This document shows, in pieces, positions 34,281-45,783 of a stretch of 48,908 bases of DNA. A program made the position numbers and the translations under genes. The notes under the pieces were generated by a model, which was given only the letters and a program-made list of their open reading frames with translations, made no database searches and was not told where the DNA came from. The DNA is from a virus, in the IMG/VR virus record IMGVR_UViG_3300047327_000020, positions 1 through 48,908 of that record; one strand, given 5' to 3'. Positions within the stretch are counted from its first letter, which is position 1. Every line of letters begins with the position of its first letter.

Positions 34281-34783
34281 CGCTGGTGCGTGGCTTGGTG
34301 CTCAGCCAAAGCGGCCCGCAAGTCAGGACGCATTGCCAGAACCGCAGGCGATGCGCTCAACGCCAACTGGAGCTTGGTCGCATACTTTGGCTCGACTTTT
34401 GGCGGCTCGACGACCTGACGTGCTTCCATCTCGGCTTTGAATGCCGCCGCTTGGGCTGCGACCCGTTGGCGTTCCGCCTCGGTTGGCTCAGCGCGCCGGT
34501 GTTCAATGCGAAGCGCGCCGGGTGCGCCGCCAAGGCGCTGGTGGGCCGGTAGTGCGTCTTTCCACTCCGCGGCAAACGCCCGATCAATGTCGTCGAAAGT
34601 CGGCACAGCCGTTTTTCGGTCAATCTTCGCCGCCCGCTCGAGAGCTCGCCGCGTGTACCTGTCATCATCCGCCGGCAGCAGCGGCAGCATGTCCACAAAC
34701 GCCTTGGCGGCTCTTTCGGCATCCATCGGCGCCACGAGTTTGGCGAGCATCGAGCACCATTGCAGCTTTGTCGGGCTAATCAT
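34277..34783 (-). CDS. Replication accessory protein (helicase-loader position)
   Basis: 168 residues from MISPTKLQWCSMLAKLVAPM. The ATG overlaps the initiator stop (ATGA), which favours it over the ATG five codons upstream. The N-terminal part (LLPADDDRYTRRALERAAKI) and the long charged helix RRAEPTEAERQRVAAQAAAF recall proteins that follow initiator genes and load helicase. No Walker motif is present, so it would be a P-like rather than a DnaC-like loader. Inferred. Confidence 0.5.
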   Translation of the reverse strand: MISPTKLQWCSMLAKLVAPMDAERAAKAFVDMLPLLPADDDRYTRRALERAAKIDRKTAVPTFDDIDRAFAAEWKDALPAHQRLGGAPGALRIEHRRAEPTEAERQRVAAQAAAFKAEMEARQVVEPPKVEPKYATKLQLALSASPAVLAMRPDLRAALAEHQATHQR

Positions 34784-35664
34784 TGCAGCAAACTCCATGC
34801 GGGGTCGGGTTCAGAATTCATCAGAGTTCCATCGTCGTTGAGGCCGACAGCGCGCAGCACGGGATCGCCGGTTTTGGCTTCATCCAGCCACCGCTCGCCG
34901 TTCAGCCAGGTCGATGGATGCGGGATAAATCGCTCTCGGTCATCGAATTTTTGGCGGATAACTGCGGAAATTATGCTATCCGGGTCAGTGCGCTTGACGG
35001 CCTTCGACCAAGCTGATCGAGCAACGCCCTTGCCGACTTTGCGAGGATACGCCTGCCAAAACCGCTCAAACCCGGCTTCCTCGCACGCACCGCGCCTGCC
35101 AGACGCCGCAGCCGCTTGGCGTGGGGGTGTGGGGGTTCTTTCTTTCTTTCTTTCTTCCTCCTTCTTACTACCTCCTCCATCCTCCATCTGTTTCTCAATT
35201 TCGGAACTGGTGGGGAACTGGTGGGGAACTGGTGGGGAAACGTCCTTGTCTAAATCTGCGGTTGGTTCCGAACCTGAACCGTCATCATCGTCTTCAGTTT
35301 CCGAACTAGAATCATTTGTGGCTGCATAAATTCTCCATTCGTGCGGCATCGGGTAGAGGCTATTCGGCTTTTTTGGCCTCTGAAACTTGCCGAAGTTCCG
35401 AATCGCTCCGTATGATTTACCGCCCACTTCGTACTTCGCGATGAAACCAAGGGAAATTAAATACTCCAAGATTTCTACGCCGTCGGCGCTTGTAGCCGGG
35501 AGAATCCGCGCCTTTAATGACATTGGTTTCCAGTCAAACGCTCCTTTATCGTCAGCTTGTCCCCACAACCCAATCAAAAACACGCAAGCCAATGGGTTGG
35601 CGGTCGCTTCCATAAACGATTCGTCTGTAAATAAGCCAGGGTGGACGCTACGGATTCTTGCCAT
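34780..35664 (-). CDS. Replication initiator (lambda O-like)
   Basis: 294 residues. The N-terminal winged-helix domain (RSVHPGLFTDESFMEATANP, GQADDKGAFDWKPMSLKARI) and the C-terminal signature FERFWQAYPRKVGKGVARSA match phage replication proteins with split domains. The linker is acidic then lysine-glutamate rich and is encoded by repeats at 35203-35236, as in lambda O where the origin lies in the gene. It would bind the origin and recruit helicase through the next gene product. Confidence 0.75.
   Translation of the reverse strand: MARIRSVHPGLFTDESFMEATANPLACVFLIGLWGQADDKGAFDWKPMSLKARILPATSADGVEILEYLISLGFIAKYEVGGKSYGAIRNFGKFQRPKKPNSLYPMPHEWRIYAATNDSSSETEDDDDGSGSEPTADLDKDVSPPVPHQFPTSSEIEKQMEDGGGSKKEEERKKERTPTPPRQAAAASGRRGACEEAGFERFWQAYPRKVGKGVARSAWSKAVKRTDPDSIISAVIRQKFDDRERFIPHPSTWLNGERWLDEAKTGDPVLRAVGLNDDGTLMNSEPDPAWSLLQ
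35203..35240 (-). repeat. Iteron-like 11-bp repeats inside the initiator gene
   Basis: GGAACTGGTGG occurs three times in direct tandem (35203-35213, 35214-35224, 35225-35235), followed by the start of a fourth (GGAAA). A purine/pyrimidine-biased tract with TTTC repeats lies at 35137-35170. Both stand between the two domains of the initiator, the lambda-ori layout. Probable replication origin. Confidence 0.6.
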
Positions 35665-36227
35665 TAGTCGCCCCTAACTTTGTTCCAGCAGACACCACAA
35701 AAATAACGAAAAATTTTATCGTGTGATCCCCACCTGTCGCCGGAAATTTCCATAGCTTCGATCACCGCAGGAAGACCCAACTTTTCAAGAAAGTTTTTGA
35801 CGCTTCGCCGGGCAGAGTCAGCCAATGTATACCCCGGGTGAAACTTCGAAAATATCAGATCAATCTCGTCTATCTCACGCTCAATACGCTCGCGTTTTTG
35901 AGCGAGCGCGGCATAATACCCATGAATCTGTTCTTCTCGCTCCTTAACCTCTTGTGCCTTGGCAGAAAGAGATTGTGGAACAGCGTGAAGCGGCCTTGCG
36001 CCTTTCCCTCGGTTGCACGAAAAACAAGACGTGATCAGATTGTCAATATGGTCTGGCCCGCCATCAGCAACAGGCTGAATATGATCTGCCTCTAGAATTG
36101 CCTCAGGAGGATGCGCGCCACAATACTGACAAGAGAACCCGTCCCGCTTAAAGACCTCAAACCTGGTTTTTTTAGATATGGCTGTGCGTTTTTTTGTTGG
36201 CGTCAGTGGTTCAGGCAATTCGTGCAT
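35664..36227 (-). CDS. HNH endonuclease with helical C-terminus
   Basis: 187 residues from MHELPEPLTPTKKRTAISKK, with AAGGAAG ribosome site. The HNH core is FKRDGFSCQYCGAHPPEAIL then EADHIQPVADGGPDHIDNLI and SCFSCNRGKGARPL. The C-terminal half is a long coiled region (EREEQIHGYYAALAQKRERI). It lies between replication and methylase genes. The role could be recombination, packaging or host-DNA degradation. Confidence 0.8.
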   Translation of the reverse strand: MHELPEPLTPTKKRTAISKKTRFEVFKRDGFSCQYCGAHPPEAILEADHIQPVADGGPDHIDNLITSCFSCNRGKGARPLHAVPQSLSAKAQEVKEREEQIHGYYAALAQKRERIEREIDEIDLIFSKFHPGYTLADSARRSVKNFLEKLGLPAVIEAMEISGDRWGSHDKIFRYFCGVCWNKVRGD

Positions 36228-36414
36228 TTTTACTTCCTTGATAATCCGCCTCGGCCTTCGCAGAACAGACCGGGCAAGCATCCACCCCGCTGGGGACGTG
36301 AATTACCCGGTCGTCGTTGCATGAGCGGCAGCGCCCCGCCAATGTGGATAACCACGTATTCACGGGCTCCCGCCGGCCATCACTGCCGACAAATGTGTAT
36401 CGCCTCGGAATCAT
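36211..36414 (-). CDS. Small zinc-ribbon protein
   Basis: 67 residues from MIPRRYTFVGSDGRREPVNT. CRSC and, 18 residues later, CPVC form a four-cysteine zinc ribbon (GRCRSCNDDRVIHVPSGVDA then CPVCSAKAEA). It overlaps both neighbours. Likely nucleic-acid binding or a cofactor of the replication genes. Confidence 0.6.
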   Translation of the reverse strand: MIPRRYTFVGSDGRREPVNTWLSTLAGRCRSCNDDRVIHVPSGVDACPVCSAKAEADYQGSKNARIA

Positions 36415-36641
36415 CCCGCCGGCCTCGCCTTCAGTTTCGGATGCAACGCTTCCCAGCCGACGAACGGGGCATCGGTCGCTGCGGTGAACCCAAGATCCAC
36501 AAGATTCCCGACCTGGCCGTAGCAGATCGAAAAATGCCGCTCGATTGTCGCCGGCCGGCTCTCGCAGGCCGTCCACTCAAAGCACACGCCATCCACGAAT
36601 ATCAGCCCAAACTCGACGGTGACTTTGATGTCGGTCTTCAT
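36411..36641 (-). CDS. Small phage protein, unknown
   Basis: 76 residues (MKTDIKVTVEFGLIFVDGVC...), beta-rich first half. ATGA overlap at both ends puts it in one transcript with the methyltransferase gene. No family recognised. Confidence 0.5.
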   Translation of the reverse strand: MKTDIKVTVEFGLIFVDGVCFEWTACESRPATIERHFSICYGQVGNLVDLGFTAATDAPFVGWEALHPKLKARPAG

Positions 36642-37432
36642 ATCAGAACCTGCTGAACTGCTGCGAGCGAACTTTCGACAAACATATCGGGCTGCTTGTA
36701 TGCTTGCTCAATGCGGCGGCAGGCTATGTCAAAGTATTTCTGCTCGCGCTCAATGCCGATAAATTTTCGGCCTAGTTTGACGCAGGCAACGCCAGTTGTG
36801 CCGCTACCCATAAAAGGGTCGAGCACTGATTCTTCAATTTTGGTAAATAGATAAACCAACTCAGACATGAGTGCGACGGGCTTCTCGGTAGGATGCGTTC
36901 CTTCCCGATCTGCGGAATTAGTTGGATAGGTGAATACATTTCGTCGTCCACCGCCGTTCCAAGAGCTGACTCCAGAACCGCACCAAGCAGACACAAACAT
37001 TTCAGCGCCCATGGCAGGGCCTTGGCCATTGAACTGCGGTGCGGAATCAGGTTTTACCCAAATGCAAGCTCGCTTGTAGCGGGCGCCAACAGCTTCTATC
37101 TCGTCGCGCCAAGCTGCCACACCCTCGGGCGTGCAGAAAATGAGTAGCCATCCACAGCAAAGTCCGGCCATAAGCGGCATTACGACCTCGCGAACCCCGT
37201 CAATGCTCGCAAAATCAACGACCGCCGGATTAGCGTAACCATCAATTCGAATCCGCCGCTGTGCGCCGTAAACTTTGACCCCACGCTTAGCTGCGTGCAT
37301 GTGTGCTTCATAAGGCGGATCTGTAATTACGGCTCCGACGCGATTAAGGTTGGGAAGAACCTCTCGACAATCTCCAAGAATAAGACTGCAATCGCCTATT
37401 TGTTCTTCTCGATATGCGGCCGCGGGCATCAC
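36638..37432 (-). CDS. DNA methyltransferase (N6-A or N4-C type)
   Basis: 264 residues. Catalytic DPPY at 38-41 comes first, and the S-adenosylmethionine motif DPFMGSGTTG at 205-214 second, with HPTEKPVALM before it, the order of beta-type amino-methyltransferases. No restriction partner is adjacent, so it is an orphan enzyme that could protect phage DNA from restriction or mark replication. The ATG overlaps the RusA-like stop. Confidence 0.88.
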   Translation of the reverse strand: MMPAAAYREEQIGDCSLILGDCREVLPNLNRVGAVITDPPYEAHMHAAKRGVKVYGAQRRIRIDGYANPAVVDFASIDGVREVVMPLMAGLCCGWLLIFCTPEGVAAWRDEIEAVGARYKRACIWVKPDSAPQFNGQGPAMGAEMFVSAWCGSGVSSWNGGGRRNVFTYPTNSADREGTHPTEKPVALMSELVYLFTKIEESVLDPFMGSGTTGVACVKLGRKFIGIEREQKYFDIACRRIEQAYKQPDMFVESSLAAVQQVLI

Positions 37433-39031: not shown

Positions 39032-39478
39032 ATGAAACGACTGATTTTGTTTATGTTGGGTTTCGCTGCGCCGGCATCCGCACAAACCGGCGGAATGGCG
39101 CTCTTTAAGTCGGATGCGCAGCCCTACATACACCTGAGCCAGCTTGCCGATGAGGCAAATTCGTGCGGATTGCGATCCAGCGACTGGAATCTGGACGCCC
39201 AAACGGCGATCAACGACAAATTCTCGTATTTCGCGGGTAATATTTGGGAAGACCCTAATGCCGCTGATGCGCAGGCGGCTATAGATTGGGCAACCGAAGA
39301 AGCCACTCTGTCGCAAGAGAAAAACTCTGATTACACGCCCAGGCAATGTGCGGCGCTCGCCAATAGCGACAACCTCACGATTCTGGATGACCTGATCATA
39401 ACCGACACCAACCTGCCAGGCGCCGCTTCGGACGTGCCACGCGACATTCCGGCCAATGCGGCACCGAGTGGCCAGTGA
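39032..39478 (+). CDS. Secreted or periplasmic protein, lysogenic-conversion candidate
   Basis: 148 residues with signal peptide MKRLILFMLGFAAPASAQ (cleavage after ASA). The mature protein holds two cysteines (NSCGLRSSDW and RQCAALANS) that could form a disulfide. It is acidic, with helices DAQAAIDWATEEATLSQEKN. A clear GGAGG precedes the ATG. It lies convergent to cro inside the early control region, a place where lysogen-expressed genes are often found. No homologous family recognised. Confidence 0.65.
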   Translation: MKRLILFMLGFAAPASAQTGGMALFKSDAQPYIHLSQLADEANSCGLRSSDWNLDAQTAINDKFSYFAGNIWEDPNAADAQAAIDWATEEATLSQEKNSDYTPRQCAALANSDNLTILDDLIITDTNLPGAASDVPRDIPANAAPSGQ

Positions 39479-39480
39479 CA

Positions 39481-39681
39481 TCACGCCGCCTCGCCATCGG
39501 AAGCCCGGCGGTAGAGGTCCGGCCTGAGCTCCTCACGCGGTATGCCTGTGATTTGCTCGACGGCGACTACATGACGAGGCGGAACCGCCGTCCAACCGCG
39601 AACTGAAGCCCTATGAAGACCAAGCTTTTCAGCCAATCGCGACGTACCGCCGCCTTTGACGATGATTTCGGAGATATCCAT
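39481..39681 (-). CDS. Cro-like / YdaS-type regulator
   Basis: 66 residues from MDISEIIVKGGGTSRLAEKL. The HTH is GGTSRLAEKLGLHRASVRGW with TAVPPRHVVAVEQITGI, a YdaS/Cro pattern. The predicted -10 lies only seven bases before the ATG and no ribosome site is present, so the mRNA is probably leaderless. It is divergent from the repressor and shares its operator, as cro does. Confidence 0.75.
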   Translation of the reverse strand: MDISEIIVKGGGTSRLAEKLGLHRASVRGWTAVPPRHVVAVEQITGIPREELRPDLYRRASDGEAA

Positions 39682-39685
39682 GCCA

Positions 39686-39740
39686 AGAATGTTGGCACTT
39701 CCAACATTCTGCGTCAAGGAATTTTGTTGGAAAAACCATC
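39686..39740 (-). promoter_or_regulatory. Leftward early promoter with two operators (PR-like)
   Basis: Minus strand: TTGACG (39717-39712), 17-base spacer, CAACAT (39694-39689). The operator AGAATGTTGG-CACTT-CCAACATTCT (39686-39710) is a perfect 10-bp inverted repeat covering spacer and -10. A weaker second site GTTGG-AAAAA-CCATC is at 39726-39740, upstream of -35 and ahead of the repressor gene. Confidence 0.75.
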
Positions 39741-39774
39741 CCGCGTGATTTTAAGTCCAACTATTCTATTTAGT

Positions 39775-40119
39775 ATGTCAGTAGAACCAAAAGAGAACAT
39801 CTTTCGCTCCCTTCGTCTTGCTCGTAAAGTAACCCAAGTGGTAGCTGCTGAAGCTCTGGGTATCTCCCGCTCGCACTTGGCTAATATAGAGAAAGGCAGT
39901 GATCTGCCTGGGAGGAACACCTTAATGGCCGCCGCCGATTTTTATAATGTTTCGCTAGATTCGCTCACACAGCGCGCACACGCGGTTTCAGGAGAAGACG
40001 CTAAAGCAAGAAATTCCCGCGAAGCATTATGGCTCGGCGCCTTCCGGCAACTGCCTGAATCTGAGGCAGACCATATTTTAGGTTACATTTTAGCGCGTAC
40101 TGCTCCACCAAAAAATTAA
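39775..40119 (+). CDS. CI-like phage repressor (short XRE type)
   Basis: 114 residues from MSVEPKENIFRSLRLARKVT. HTH: RLARKVTQVVAAEALGISRS then HLANIEKGSDLPGRNTLMAA. The C-terminal part (ARNSREALWLGAFRQLPESE) is short and helical with no LexA-type S24 peptidase, so induction would not use RecA-triggered self-cleavage in the usual manner. It lies between the two operator sets. The start was chosen because the upstream extension overlaps the operator. Confidence 0.78.
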   Translation: MSVEPKENIFRSLRLARKVTQVVAAEALGISRSHLANIEKGSDLPGRNTLMAAADFYNVSLDSLTQRAHAVSGEDAKARNSREALWLGAFRQLPESEADHILGYILARTAPPKN

Positions 40120-40155
40120 ACTTTTACATTTACGCGTTATTACTTTTTTTTAAGT

Positions 40156-40206
40156 GTTGGAATAACCAACTTTTTTGTTGACTTATAATGTTGGCTCTCC
40201 CAACAT
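40156..40206 (+). promoter_or_regulatory. Rightward early promoter with two operators (PL-like)
   Basis: Plus strand: TTGACT (40178-40183), 17-base spacer, CAACAT (40201-40206). The operator ATGTTGG-CTCTC-CCAACAT (40188-40206) covers spacer and -10. The second site GTTGG-AATAA-CCAAC (40156-40170) lies upstream. The layout copies the leftward promoter almost base for base. TATAAT at 40184-40189 within the spacer is probably not the -10. Confidence 0.75.
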
Positions 40207-40207
40207 A

Positions 40208-40232
40208 GCCTCATCACCCACGCTGATGAGGC
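40208..40232 (+). promoter_or_regulatory. Leader hairpin hiding the ribosome site
   Basis: GCCTCATCA-CCCACGC-TGATGAGGC is a perfect 9-bp hairpin. Its right arm contains GATGAGG, the only ribosome-binding-like sequence before the ATG at 40237. In the transcript from the rightward promoter the site would be closed, so translation control is likely. Confidence 0.55.
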
Positions 40233-40236
40233 TTAT

Positions 40237-40500
40237 ATGCCAGTCTTTCCCCCGCCTGCCCTTCTATCCCACCCGCTGCTTCAACCCGGCATTGCCGCGC
40301 GCATGGCCGACAGCATTGAGGCAATCCAGCTCGAAGAAAGCCTGGCCAGCTCAGAAATGCGCCTGAGCCACCTGCTGACAGCCCAAGAGCACCGCGGCGA
40401 TGACGAGACCGCCGATGAGGCTGCTGCGCTCGACCGTCTGATCGCCATCGCCCAGGTGCGCCGGTCGCGCATCCTGCGGGCGCTTGGGGGCGGCCGATGA
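40237..40500 (+). CDS. Small phage protein, first gene of rightward early operon
   Basis: 87 residues (MPVFPPPALLSHPLLQPGIA...). A proline-rich start is followed by helices MADSIEAIQLEESLASSEMR and DETADEAAALDRLIAIAQVR, and a basic end. By position it is the first rightward gene, like lambda N or its equivalents, but no antiterminator motif is seen. The ribosome site is inside a hairpin. Confidence 0.55.
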   Translation: MPVFPPPALLSHPLLQPGIAARMADSIEAIQLEESLASSEMRLSHLLTAQEHRGDDETADEAAALDRLIAIAQVRRSRILRALGGGR

Positions 40501-41580: not shown

Positions 41581-41749
41581 AGCCTACGAATTGATTTCGG
41601 CCGTGAAAGACTCGCTCTCAACTTTGCGCGGCGAATACGATGTTGACCGCCAGACCAAAAAATTTCTCGAAGCGTTGCACGAGCGCGGTCTTTCGATTGT
41701 TGGGCAAGCCAAGCCCGTTGCTGCGCCCGCACTGCATGAGGTGGCGTGA
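41567..41749 (+). CDS. Small helical protein before the nuclease gene
   Basis: 60 residues (MNTLEAYELISAVKDSLSTL...). It is helical, with DRQTKKFLEALHERGLSIVG. The TGA overlaps the start of the nuclease gene (TGATG). Function unknown. Confidence 0.5.
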   Translation: MNTLEAYELISAVKDSLSTLRGEYDVDRQTKKFLEALHERGLSIVGQAKPVAAPALHEVA

Positions 41750-42708
41750 TGGCTATCCAGGCACCCGGCATCTACGAGATTGACGAAGCGCAGTATCATG
41801 CTGACCCGTGCCCGGCCCCTTCGCTCTCGCACAGCATCGCCAAAATGCTTTTGCAGCGCAGCCCTCGCCACGCATGGGCGGCGCACCCGCGCCTGGGTGC
41901 GCTGACAGACAACGAGACCGACGCGGCGATGGATGCAGGAACGATCATCCACAAATTGATCTTGGGGCGCGGCGCCGAAATTGTGCCGATCACCGCGACC
42001 TATGGCCCCAAGCATGCGCGAGCTGGGCAAGTAGTCTCGGATTACAAAACAGATGCCGCCCAGGAAGAACGCGAGGCGATCCGCGCGGCCGGGCATATTC
42101 CGGTGCTGCTCTGCGCGCTGCCGCCACTGCAAGAGTGTGCGGAGGCGGCGCTCGAGCAAATGCGTGCCCACCCCGATCTGGCGGCATTTTTCGCGCCATG
42201 CCGCTCTGAGGCGGTGATGGCGTGGCAGGACGGCGAGACATGGTGCCGCGGCATTGTAGACCGGCTGCCCGACAACCCGCGGGCGCCGCTGTTCGACATC
42301 AAAACCACCGGAATGTCGGCCGCGCCAGCGTCGTGGGAACGCCGTATGATCCACGAATACGCCACGCAGGCGGCGTTTTACCGCGCCGGACTGCGCGCGA
42401 TTCGTGGCATTGAGCCCGGCCCGATGCTGTTCGTCGTGATTGAGACCGAGGCGCCCTACTGCATGTCGGTGGTCACGCCCGCGCCTTCGCTGTTGGCCTA
42501 CGCCGAGCGCGAGATTGAGCACGCTATCGAAGTCTGGCGCGGCTGCATCGCGACCAACGAGTGGCCCGGCTATCCGGCTTTCACCGCGCATGTCGAGCTG
42601 CCTGGCTACATGGAAATCCGCGAGGAAGAAACCGCAATCCGCCGGCAGTTCGTGCGCGGCGCCAAGCACAATCCCGATAACGCATTCAATATGGAGTTCG
42701 CCCCGTGA
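41749..42708 (+). CDS. PD-(D/E)XK exonuclease (RecE/lambda-exo type)
   Basis: 319 residues from MAIQAPGIYEIDEAQYHADP. Visible site residues are H68 (AGTIIHKL), D171 (GIVDRLPD) and D183-I-K185 (LFDIKTT), the RecB/RecE-type order with H, D, D-x-K. It precedes a RecA-like annealing ATPase by GTGA overlap. The pair makes a phage recombination module: the exonuclease exposes single strands and the partner joins them. Confidence 0.8.
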   Translation: MAIQAPGIYEIDEAQYHADPCPAPSLSHSIAKMLLQRSPRHAWAAHPRLGALTDNETDAAMDAGTIIHKLILGRGAEIVPITATYGPKHARAGQVVSDYKTDAAQEEREAIRAAGHIPVLLCALPPLQECAEAALEQMRAHPDLAAFFAPCRSEAVMAWQDGETWCRGIVDRLPDNPRAPLFDIKTTGMSAAPASWERRMIHEYATQAAFYRAGLRAIRGIEPGPMLFVVIETEAPYCMSVVTPAPSLLAYAEREIEHAIEVWRGCIATNEWPGYPAFTAHVELPGYMEIREEETAIRRQFVRGAKHNPDNAFNMEFAP

Positions 42709-43742
42709 GCTTTACCCTTCGCCCCGCCGTGCGGGAAAAAATCGGCCTGTTGTTCGGGATCGCCGGGGCGTCTGGTAGCGGCAAGACCTTTTCCGCGTTA
42801 ACGCTGGCGGCCGGCATTGCCAACGGCACAGGCAGGATCGCGGTGATTGATACCGAAGCCGGCCGCGCTCTGCATTACGCTCCGAAGCCCGGCGAGAAAG
42901 CCGATCACGCGCGCGGCACGTTTGACTTCTTGCACCTCGACTTTCAACCGCCTTTTACGCCCGAACGCTACATCGAAGCGATCCGCGAGTGTGAAGAGGG
43001 CGGTGCGACGGTGATCGTAATTGATTCCATGTCGCACGAATGGGCCGGCGAGGGCGGGTGCTCAGACATGCAAATGGCCGAGGCAACACGCATGGCGACC
43101 GACCGTGAAGGCAAGCTGCAGGAGTGGAAGATTGAGGCCATGACGGCGCCGGCTTGGAAGAAGCCAAAGTTGCGGCACATGCGCATGATGGCGCGGCTGA
43201 TCCAAACGCGCACGCATCTGATTTTTTGCCTGCGCGCGCAAGAGAAGATCAAGATTGTCAAGAAGCAGGACGGCAAAGGCACCGAAATCGTGCCAGTCGG
43301 CTTTCAACCTATATGCGAAAAAAACTTTATGTTTGAACTCTCAGGTAGTATGACGATGCACCCGGAAAGCCCTGGCCAGCCGCGCTATGACCTGCCGTGC
43401 AAGCTGAACTCCGATCTGCAGGCGATATTTCCGGAAGGTGCGCGCATCGGCGCGGTGGCAGGCAAACGCCTGCGCCAATGGGCAGAGGCGGGAGCTGATC
43501 GGCCGGCGGCCGACCGGGTGGCCGATGGTGTGCGCGATCTGGTCGAGCGCATCCAAGACGCGGCGAGCTCGTCTGATTTGCGTGCGATCACCGCCGAGGC
43601 CGACGTGATTAAGCAGCGCGCTTATCTTGCTGCGAAGCGGCCTGACTTGGCTGAAAAGGTGGATAAGGCCGTCGCCGACGCGCTGACGTTGTTCGATGCC
43701 AGCGGCGCGGCCGATGGGTTTGACGAAAGCGACGCAGCATGA
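42705..43742 (+). CDS. RecA-like AAA ATPase (Sak4 type)
   Basis: 345 residues from GTG. Walker A GASGSGKT at 21-28, Walker B TVIVIDSMSHEW near 102-113. The following region (AWKKPKLRHMRMMARLIQTR, THLIFCLRAQEKI) is typical of Sak4-like phage ATPases. The C-terminal 80 residues form a helical extension (DLVERIQDAASSSDLRAITA). It pairs with the preceding exonuclease in strand annealing. It may also work with host SSB. Confidence 0.8.
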   Translation: MSFTLRPAVREKIGLLFGIAGASGSGKTFSALTLAAGIANGTGRIAVIDTEAGRALHYAPKPGEKADHARGTFDFLHLDFQPPFTPERYIEAIRECEEGGATVIVIDSMSHEWAGEGGCSDMQMAEATRMATDREGKLQEWKIEAMTAPAWKKPKLRHMRMMARLIQTRTHLIFCLRAQEKIKIVKKQDGKGTEIVPVGFQPICEKNFMFELSGSMTMHPESPGQPRYDLPCKLNSDLQAIFPEGARIGAVAGKRLRQWAEAGADRPAADRVADGVRDLVERIQDAASSSDLRAITAEADVIKQRAYLAAKRPDLAEKVDKAVADALTLFDASGAADGFDESDAA

Positions 43743-43828
43743 CGACCCGCCGCAAGTGCCTGAGCTGCCCGGCCCTCGTGCCGCGCGGTCGGTTTTGGTG
43801 TGATCCGTGCGCGGAGAGGTTGGGGTGA
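43739..43828 (+). CDS. Zinc-ribbon microprotein
   Basis: 29 residues: MTTRRKCLSCPALVPRGRFW then CDPCAERLG. CxxC...CxxC (C7, C10, C21, C24) is a minimal zinc ribbon. It overlaps both neighbours by four bases. Likely nucleic-acid or protein binding. Confidence 0.6.
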   Translation: MTTRRKCLSCPALVPRGRFWCDPCAERLG

Positions 43829-44223
43829 CCGATTCGGCGTTCCTCACCCTGGCCGAGGTGCTCAACCAGCGCCTGCTGCCCTGCCGGCGGAATTTCCTGC
43901 TTGACCATTTGGCCAAAACGCCTCTGCATCACGGGAAACCAACCCACCGGCGGGTGGGGCGCCGCATTTTCTTCTACCCCGAAGACCTCGACACGCTGAA
44001 AGCGAGCCTCGCATGTCCATCGAAGTCGTCACCATTAAAGGCCGAAAAAACCTCTACCTCCGCGGAACCTTCCTCGGACAAAAGGTATTTGAAAGCGCTG
44101 GCACTGGCGACGCGGCTATCGCAAACGCCCTTCGCGTCAGGCGAGAAAACGCCATCCTCAACGAAAGCCTGCACGGCAAGCAAGCCGTCAAAACCTTCGC
44201 GGACGCTGCGGCTAGTTACCTGA
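43825..44223 (+). CDS. Excisionase-like protein with long overlap into int
   Basis: 132 residues from GTG (GTGA overlap). The first 65 residues (VTDSAFLTLAEVLNQRLLPC, KTPLHHGKPTHRRVGRRIFF, YPEDLDTLKA) look like an AlpA/MerR-type excisionase HTH. The last 70, rich in S, T, K and P, are read from the same bases as the integrase start in another frame (44013-44223). They may be tolerated filler or truly used. Xis would turn integrase toward excision. Confidence 0.6.
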   Translation: MTDSAFLTLAEVLNQRLLPCRRNFLLDHLAKTPLHHGKPTHRRVGRRIFFYPEDLDTLKASLACPSKSSPLKAEKTSTSAEPSSDKRYLKALALATRLSQTPFASGEKTPSSTKACTASKPSKPSRTLRLVT

Positions 44224-45167
44224 CTTTTGAGCCGCGCGCGCCGGCCACGGCCGAGAATGTGCGAAAGCTGCTGATCCATTTCCGCGATGCCCCGCTGGCT
44301 CACATCGGCCAGGACGCGCTGGTCGGGGCATTCCGGGCGGTGCTGCGCGACGGCCAAGCGGCAGCGCCCGCTACCAAGGTCCGAGCCGTCATTACCCCGC
44401 TGAACGCGATCATGGAGCACGCCGCCACGATGGGCTGGTGCGCCAGGCCGGCGTTCAAAAAGCCGCGGGTGCCCAAGACCTCGACCAATTTCCTCCTGCC
44501 GGCCGAGGCTGATGCGCTGATTGCCAACGCCGCGCCGCACCTGCGGCCGCTGCTGACGTTTCTGATCGGGACCGGTTGCCGCATGTCGGAGGCGCTCGAG
44601 CTCACGTGGGATCGGGTGGACCTGCACGGCGCGCGGGCGCGGGTTTGGCAAAAACAGGGCAACGAGCGCCGGGTGGATCTGCCCCCGCGCGTGCTGACCG
44701 CGCTCCGGGCTATTCCGATCAACGGCGAGGCTCGCGAAGGCGCGGTGTTCCGCCCGGTGCTCTCGCGCGCGGTAATCGGCCAGGAGCGGGCCAAGCATGG
44801 CAAAAAAGGAAAACAGCTGGGGCAGAGCTACCGGATCACCGGCTATGGCGGTGGGCAGATCAAGGCCGCCTGGGCGACGGCGTGCCGCAAGGCCGGGCTG
44901 CCGGGCACCTGGCGGGAATGGACGCCCAAGGGGTCCGATAAGCCCAAGCGCCAGTTTGTGCCGACGCTGACGCCGCACGACGCCCGGCACACATGGGCGA
45001 GCTGGCACGCCTGCATTTACCGCGACCCGTTCAAGCTGCGCGTAGATGGCGGGTGGGCGACGCTGACGATGGTGCAGAATTACGCGCACGCTATGCCAGA
45101 GGTCTATGCCGACGAGATCAGGGCTTGGTTGGCAGGGGGCGCGGCCGAACTGAGGCGGGAAGCCTGA
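44013..45167 (+). CDS. int: Tyrosine-type phage integrase
   Basis: 384 residues. N-terminal arm-type domain (VVTIKGRKNLYLRGTFLGQK), core-binding helices (VKTFADAAASYLTFEPRAPA), and the catalytic domain with Arg in GTGCRMSEALELTW, the HDARHTWASWH box and tyrosine in MVQNYAHAMPEVY. It inserts and removes the prophage with the excisionase and host factors. It stands at the right prophage edge, as usual, followed by a terminator. Confidence 0.92.
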   Translation: MSIEVVTIKGRKNLYLRGTFLGQKVFESAGTGDAAIANALRVRRENAILNESLHGKQAVKTFADAAASYLTFEPRAPATAENVRKLLIHFRDAPLAHIGQDALVGAFRAVLRDGQAAAPATKVRAVITPLNAIMEHAATMGWCARPAFKKPRVPKTSTNFLLPAEADALIANAAPHLRPLLTFLIGTGCRMSEALELTWDRVDLHGARARVWQKQGNERRVDLPPRVLTALRAIPINGEAREGAVFRPVLSRAVIGQERAKHGKKGKQLGQSYRITGYGGGQIKAAWATACRKAGLPGTWREWTPKGSDKPKRQFVPTLTPHDARHTWASWHACIYRDPFKLRVDGGWATLTMVQNYAHAMPEVYADEIRAWLAGGAAELRREA

Positions 45168-45183
45168 CCGAAATTGGCGCGCA

Positions 45184-45207
45184 AGCCCGGCCGTTCAGGG
45201 CCGGGTT
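45184..45207 (+). terminator. Hairpin terminator after int
   Basis: AGCCCGGCC-GTTCAG-GGCCGGGTT, a 9-bp stem with one G-T pair, begins 17 bases after the int stop. The following T-run is short, so it is a moderate terminator. The right attachment site probably lies here or just beyond. Confidence 0.5.
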
Positions 45208-45303
45208 AGCCCTTCTTCCTTTGCTGCTCCACGTAGCGCCATTTGGCCGGGCGGGCGATCCGGCGTATGATATTTTTTGAACTTGAAGTGCGAGGAGGTC
45301 GTG

Positions 45304-45783
45304 ATGGCGGGCAGCGTCAATAAGGTGACCCTGGTGGGGAACCTCGGCAAGGATCCGGAAATACGCACGGCGCAGACCGGCCTTAAAATCGTCAACCTCG
45401 CGGTCGCGACCTCCGATACCTGGAATGACAAGACCAGCGGCGAGCGCAAGGAACAAACCGAATGGCACCGCGTCGTCATCATGAACGACCGGCTCGCGGA
45501 AGTTGCGGAAAAATACCTGCGCAAGGGCTCAAAAGTGTATCTCGAGGGCAAATTACAGACGCGAAAATGGACTGACCAATCCGGCCAGGAGAAGTATACG
45601 ACCGAGGTCATGCTCGGTCGTTTCGGTGCCGAACTGGTACTGCTGGATCGCAACCCCGCTGCCGGCGGTGAAGCCTACGAGCCGCGCGCCGCAGCACCCG
45701 CCCGTGCCCCGGCACCGGCAAGGGCTGTGGGCGGCTGGGATACGCGGCCGGGCACCGATTTGGATGATGAGATACCCTTCTGA
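45304..45783 (+). CDS. ssb: Single-stranded DNA-binding protein
   Basis: 159 residues from [20 protein letters not shown], with GAGGAGG ahead. The OB-fold text ([58 protein letters not shown]) is standard. The C-terminal tip is DLDDEIPF, the conserved acidic partner-binding end. A promoter TTGGCC-N17-TATGAT lies upstream. It looks like the host chromosomal gene, so the prophage should end before it. Confidence 0.93.

Follow-up and report, generated by a model that had tools for sequence, protein, structure and literature searches.

A probable lambda-like immunity switch with paired operators around a peptidase-free repressor gene in a temperate phage akin to those of acetic acid bacteria

The window (the whole 48,908-nucleotide stretch of viral DNA analysed here) exhibits a short gene for a 114-aa XRE repressor between two outward promoters, each overlapped by a palindrome. 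This locus raises the question of whether it is a switch of the lambda type and, if so, how the corresponding prophage would leave the lysogenic state: the repressor lacks a Ser/Lys peptidase, so that induction must use something other than self-cleavage. With a probability of about 0.87, the region controls the choice between lysis and lysogeny (immunity switch) in a temperate phage that has a contractile tail and whose relatives infect acetic acid bacteria.

Operators, promoters and genes of the region

The core palindrome GTTGG-N5-CCAAC occurs in exactly three copies in the 48,908 bases, all inside the switch (Table 1). With one mismatch allowed, three further copies are found in the record, OL2 among them. 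The full motif with up to 3 mismatches gives 6 matches (3 palindromic sites, both strands) against 0.45 expected, a number reached by none of 100 shuffled sequences. The operators are spaced by 35 bp (left pair) and 34 bp (right pair) from centre to centre. We also searched for four sites without assuming a sequence, trying all 1024 five-base arms with two sites on each side of the repressor gene and pairs 33-37 bp apart. This unbiased search chose GTTGG, with 39 of 40 letters matching; 20 Markov shuffles gave at most 30.

Table 1. Features of the switch region and of the flanking early operons (positions in the window)
Feature	Position	Strand	Description
Left early operon past cro	34780..37432	-	DNA methyltransferase, HNH endonuclease, replication initiator; counterpart of lambda right operon
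cro-like gene	39481..39681	-	66 aa; YdaS/P22-Cro family; ATG 7 bases past -10
OL1 operator	39688..39708		AATGTTGG-N5-CCAACATT, full site AATGTTGGCACTTCCAACATT; over spacer and -10 of cro promoter
cro (left early) promoter	39689..39717	-	TTGACG 39717-39712, 17-base spacer, CAACAT 39694-39689
OL2 operator	39726..39740		GTTGG-AAAAA-CCATC; one arm mismatch; 8 bases upstream of left -35
Candidate repressor promoter -10 (PRM-like)	39762..39767	+	TATTCT; no recognisable -35
Repressor gene	39775..40119	+	114 aa; HTH_3 and short helical C-terminal part, no peptidase domain
LexA-type box (alphaproteobacterial)	39784..39798	+	GAAC-N7-GAAC; 9 bases past A of repressor ATG
OR2 operator	40153..40173		AGTGTTGGAATAACCAACTTT; core GTTGG-AATAA-CCAAC 40156-40170; 7 bases upstream of right -35
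Right early promoter	40178..40206	+	TTGACT 40178-40183, 17-base spacer, CAACAT 40201-40206
OR1 operator	40187..40207		AATGTTGG-N5-CCAACATA, full site AATGTTGGCTCTCCCAACATA; over spacer and -10 of right early promoter
Inverted repeat	40208..40232	+	GCCTCATCA-N7-TGATGAGGC; 3' arm holds RBS of first right gene; 5' arm begins before predicted transcription start
First right-operon gene	40237..40500	+	87 aa; no assigned function
Right early operon	41746..45783	+	exonuclease VIII-like, AAA_24 recombination ATPase, integrase, SSB; counterpart of lambda left operon

An earlier note on this DNA had described two outward promoters in which TTGAC precedes a CAACAT -10 lying under the operator, a second GTTGG-N5-CCAAC-like site 7-8 bases upstream of each -35, and the repressor gene between the operators. 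All these elements were found in place, the second site having a perfect core on the right and one mismatch on the left. As a sigma-70 -10, CAACAT is weak, and it overlaps exactly with an operator arm; independent evidence for the promoters is therefore limited to TTGAC and its spacing. The exact composite TTGACN4AATGTTGGN5CCAACAT had no match in viral contigs. Within the right promoter, a perfect TATAAT (40184-40189) directly follows TTGAC, with a -35 that is poor for that position; it is a possible second transcription start, covered by the operator as well.

The same note had called the locus a full lambda-style switch, and with two promoters, operators, a cro-like gene and early operons it has the corresponding parts, arranged as the mirror image of lambda: the repressor gene points rightward, cro belongs to the left transcript, and the right transcript corresponds to that of lambda PL. 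Reversed, the gene order is that of lambda (PL operon, operators, cI, operators, cro, replication), with recombination and integration genes on one early arm and replication genes on the other. In a profile search, the left gene matches PF15943 (YdaS_toxin) with 46.3 bits against a cut-off of 30, and P22_Cro with 21.3 bits, under the cut-off of 30.2. The repressor exhibits HTH_3 only, in agreement with the proposed lack of a peptidase domain; its structure model is of moderate quality (pLDDT 77), so that the oligomerisation part is putative. The record, an IMG/VR phage genome, also codes for a terminase, a portal protein and a tail sheath, and has, at one of its ends, a host-like gene for an FAD monooxygenase.

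On the strand opposite the cro operon, a 148-aa ORF (39032-39478, plus strand) exhibits a signal-peptide-like start and no family match; it is possibly an exclusion or conversion gene. A tRNA-Val is located at 53-127 near the left end of the record, with GTTC-N7-GTTC at 254; the phage phiAX1 also has a tRNA-Val. Neither repeated ends nor an att repeat near the tRNA-Val were found in the window record.

Layout and operator types in relatives

No related phage DNA was detected by blastn, and the repressor alone as query identified no close relatives in viral contigs. The Cro-like protein as query retrieved 31 viral contigs. Four of them exhibit a near-identical left control region, with the same right pair 1.2-2 kb away beyond cargo genes. 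A repressor alignment was then used, yielding Acetobacter and other relatives in genomes and contigs; repressor matches are present in 35 of 397 Acetobacteraceae genomes. By unbiased scoring, 30 loci, mostly Acetobacteraceae prophages, carry two operators on each side with a pair spacing of 33-36 bp, these relatives not being independent (22 clusters at 75% repressor identity). When the loci are aligned on the inner operator, the TTG of the -35 has a fixed position, shared by 21-24 of the 30 left promoters and by 16-24 of the 30 right ones. The layout holds even with 0.5-1.5 kb of cargo between the repressor gene and the right pair, and loci anchored on the Cro-like gene exhibit the same layout with further half-site types.

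The cargo, in the position of lambda rexAB, varies between loci (L007, L017, L021, L023) and includes an M78 (ImmA/IrrE-like) protease, a RhuM family protein, membrane proteins and an unknown 297-aa protein. The M78 gene lies between the repressor gene and the right operators in one relative only (L017/L038).

The earlier claim of only two sites per side holds in the window and in most relatives, but not as a rule of the family: L086, L089, L093 and L103 exhibit a clear third site, which overlies the repressor promoter, and phiAP1 (see below) also has one. In the window the candidate for such a site matches 7 of 10 letters and is equalled by 9% of shuffles, no better than chance.

About 10 half-site types are represented in the 30 loci (GTTGG, GTCGG, GTGGG, GTTTG, GTTGC, GTCGC, GTCTC, GTCAC, GTAAG and TTAGC). 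The GTTGG type is retained with repressors down to about one third identity with that of the window, and at that level of identity the imperfect repressor-side arm of OL2 (GATGG, read inward) is kept as well. Across the 22 clusters, repressor residues 27 and 37 covary with half-site base 3 (p <=0.003 each) and residue 34 with base 4 (p <=0.005), all being single-test values from 400 shuffles that ignore tree structure. Lys37 pairs with GTGG, Glu37 with GTCG, and Asn37 mostly with GTTG. This covariation supports the palindromes as the repressor's own sites, and suggests that the operator sequence changes in step with the recognition helix while the geometry stays fixed.

One relative is an isolated phage. 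Acetobacter phage phiAP1 (LC644972) was obtained from Acetobacter by mitomycin C treatment and infects a cured host (PMC8566455). The palindrome TTCGC-N5-GCGAA is present in exactly three copies in its genome, all in its switch. Like the window, phiAP1 exhibits two operators on each side 34 bp apart, TTGAC at the same offset, a 5' inverted repeat on the right and a LexA-type box in the repressor gene; the distance from OL2 to the ATG is 43. It differs in operator type, and its repressor is only distantly related, matching the family profile with an E-value of 9e-7. Its repressor promoter is overlain by a third site that is almost perfect, and its OL2 is weak, with 3 mismatches. A short repressor thus does not prevent a phage of such layout from being recovered with a DNA-damaging agent. 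Other phages of the mitomycin C study exhibited no clear four-site arrangement (phiKX1, phiKX2, phiKM1) or no repressor match (phiAX1, phiAO1).

Repressor transcript, right leader and LexA-type box

In the window the centre of OL2 is located 42 bp upstream of the repressor ATG. The distance from this centre to an in-frame repressor ATG is 41 bp in 23 loci, 42 bp in 7 and 44 bp in one, which accounts for all 31 loci measured. Upstream of the ATG, A is found at -11 in 20 of 31 loci and T at -7 in 23 of 31, with no -35; this is the pattern of a -10 whose start is the ATG itself. The window's own candidate -10, TATTCT, is ordinary. In lambda, PRM is activated from OR2, likewise located about 42 bp upstream of the repressor start. 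With OL2 at the lambda OR2 distance in 31 loci, the left pair should have two roles, repression of cro and stimulation of the repressor gene. We infer from these positions that the repressor mRNA would be leaderless and activated by repressor at OL2. In 29 of 31 loci, 14-18 bp separate the OL1 centre from the cro ATG, which follows the -10 after about 7 bases and leaves no room for a ribosome-binding site; the cro mRNA is probably leaderless too.

We propose that the 114-aa repressor, as a dimer, would recognise GTTGG-N5-CCAAC and, at OL1 and OR1, would cover the spacer and the -10, keeping cro on the left and the recombination/integration operon on the right switched off. At OL2, 42 bp before the presumed start of its own leaderless mRNA, it would probably activate a promoter devoid of a -35. 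The Cro protein, of YdaS type, would probably compete for the same sites and thereby favour the lytic state. That the sites form pairs of similar spacing on either side suggests a cooperative contact between dimers, possibly with looping between the pairs. The LexA-type box near the start of the repressor gene would tie the switch to the SOS response.

The right leader may add a further element. Downstream of OR1, 25 of 30 loci carry an inverted repeat; the mean folding z is -2.05 versus +0.11 for the left leaders. A transcript initiated at the predicted start would lack the first part of the 5' arm, so that only RNA that reads through from further upstream could fold into the complete hairpin. 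The predicted pairing of the ribosome-binding site is 0.68 in read-through RNA versus 0.51 in early-start RNA (29 loci; 0.85 versus 0.57 in the window), a difference to be read with the fact that a truncated RNA pairs less anyway. These folding predictions suggest that the repeat may shield the lytic operon against read-through of the lysogenic transcript. RNAalifold yielded no consensus for the leaders, because the repeat arms do not align by sequence, and single-sequence folding was used instead.

The four sites could instead be purely repressive, OL2 and OR2 adding cooperative occupancy only, with a repressor promoter that is constitutive or otherwise activated. The location of OL2 and OR2 7-8 bp upstream of their -35 boxes is compatible with this, as is the spacing of 33-36 bp on the right side, where no repressor promoter exists. 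We nevertheless consider it unlikely, given an OL2-ATG distance conserved in every locus across many operator types, the -10-like columns lacking a -35, and the activating OR2 of lambda standing at the same distance. A toxin-antitoxin or defence module, in which the XRE protein silences a YdaS-like toxin, is very improbable. The Pfam name of the left gene points in that direction, and Rac RacR/YdaS has been described in a paper as a toxin repressor. We set this reading aside in view of the right operator-promoter, the flanking recombination and replication early operons and the integrase; moreover, YdaS is presented as a Cro analogue and not as a toxin in the CP-933P work (PMC8630535).

The GAAC-N7-GAAC box corresponds to the published alphaproteobacterial LexA motif, and all 8 Acetobacteraceae lexA upstream regions examined contain it, in the lexA orientation. 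The immunity regions, 39.9 kb in all, contain 21 copies where 0.6 would be expected, and no copy of the control arrangement GTTC-N7-GAAC. The loci with a box are L038-L041, L043, L060, L076, L077, L080-L082, L086, L091, L093-L096, L102-L104, the window and phiAP1, the phiAP1 box, within the repressor gene, being the only one of its genome. Coding constraint on the repressor N-terminus, together with chance, might account for the box without any functional LexA regulation: it falls on an R-T-L-R-E motif in several repressors, synonymous recoding predicts 1.8 occurrences in 32 loci, and no convincing sigma-70 promoter of SOS type was found at a fixed offset from the boxes in either direction. 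This explanation appears rather unlikely, as the box occurs at the 5' end of the repressor gene in 10 of the 32 loci, never reversed and spread over three reading frames, and 11 more boxes occur in non-coding DNA just after the repressor gene; the excess over expectation, the lexA genes and the sole box of phiAP1 also stand against it.

The SOS wiring of the switch is likely, on the evidence of LexA-type boxes in or beside most repressor genes and of phiAP1 recovered by mitomycin C. This weakens the earlier suggestion to look for inducing signals other than the SOS response. If LexA simply blocked transcription at the box, DNA damage would raise the amount of repressor, opposite to lambda. In L039, L040, L080-L082 and L102, the far end of the cargo carries a second LexA-type box in reverse orientation, some 55-95 bp short of the right operators; it perhaps serves a leftward cargo gene. 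As a tentative and somewhat less than even proposition, we suggest a broad phage family of acetic acid bacteria with a peptidase-free lambda-like switch, in which a host LexA site in or just behind the repressor gene would gate the lysogenic transcript directly, without self-cleavage or a distant antirepressor, and in which operator and recognition helix would switch together within a fixed two-plus-two geometry to give new immunity types.

These loci form a natural series of lambda-type switches, with fixed positions for two promoters, four operators and two putatively leaderless genes, and with at least 10 operator specificities. Such fixed positions combined with many specificities make the rules linking helix to operator and spacing to activation readable and testable. 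With the LexA-type box in the phiAP1 repressor gene, an isolated phage becomes available for testing how a prophage whose repressor cannot be cleaved responds to DNA damage.

Comparison with known systems

With lambda the window shares operators over two outward early promoters, a repressor gene between them, the position of the putative activating site, and the distribution of recombination/int genes on one side and cro/replication genes on the other. Unlike lambda, its repressor has no peptidase domain, which precludes RecA-dependent self-cleavage, there are two instead of three operators per side, and a tail sheath among the structural genes indicates a myovirus. OL1 and OL2 are about one helical turn further apart than OR1 and OR2 of lambda. 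The repressor DNA-binding domain has its best sequence-profile and fold matches in ImmR (ICEBs1) and DdrO (Deinococcus), for the HTH domain only. ImmR and DdrO are inactivated by ImmA/IrrE metalloproteases. In a switch of the ImmR/ImmA type an M78 metalloprotease accompanies the repressor, whereas none was found in the window record and the relative L017/L038 has one.

The nearest described system is PaaR2/YdaS of CP-933P. PaaR2-YdaS-YdaT form the immunity region of CP-933P / Sp12 in E. coli O157:H7, according to the published account (PMC8630535). As reported there, the repressor lacks a peptidase motif and YdaS acts as Cro; a second early promoter PL with matching operators lies past the repressor gene, as in the window, and cargo separates the two, as in the relatives of the window. 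The divergent PR and PRM of CP-933P occupy about 97 bp, and 94 bp separate the divergent cro and repressor ATGs of the window. In CP-933P, PR/PRM carries four palindromes at equal spacing and PL has three operators, against two clear sites per side in the window, with the 33-36 bp spacing of its family. The paaR2 transcript is leaderless by 5' RACE (PMC8630535), and in the window both cro and repressor transcripts look leaderless. The passages of that account considered here mention no LexA box in the repressor gene (PMC8630535), whereas the window carries a LexA-type one.

The Gifsy repressors GfoR/GtgR of Salmonella are short, non-cleavable lambdoid repressors of SOS-inducible prophages, with LexA involved (PMC3121763). 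The LexA targets in those prophages are antirepressor genes, separate from the immunity region and located outside it (PMC3121763), whereas the LexA-type box lies in the repressor gene of the window, and inside or right behind that gene in its relatives; unlike for Gifsy, no antirepressor was identified here. Compared with the systems described in the open-access literature, these loci stand out by their geometry, by the variety of their operator types and by the LexA-type box in the repressor gene.
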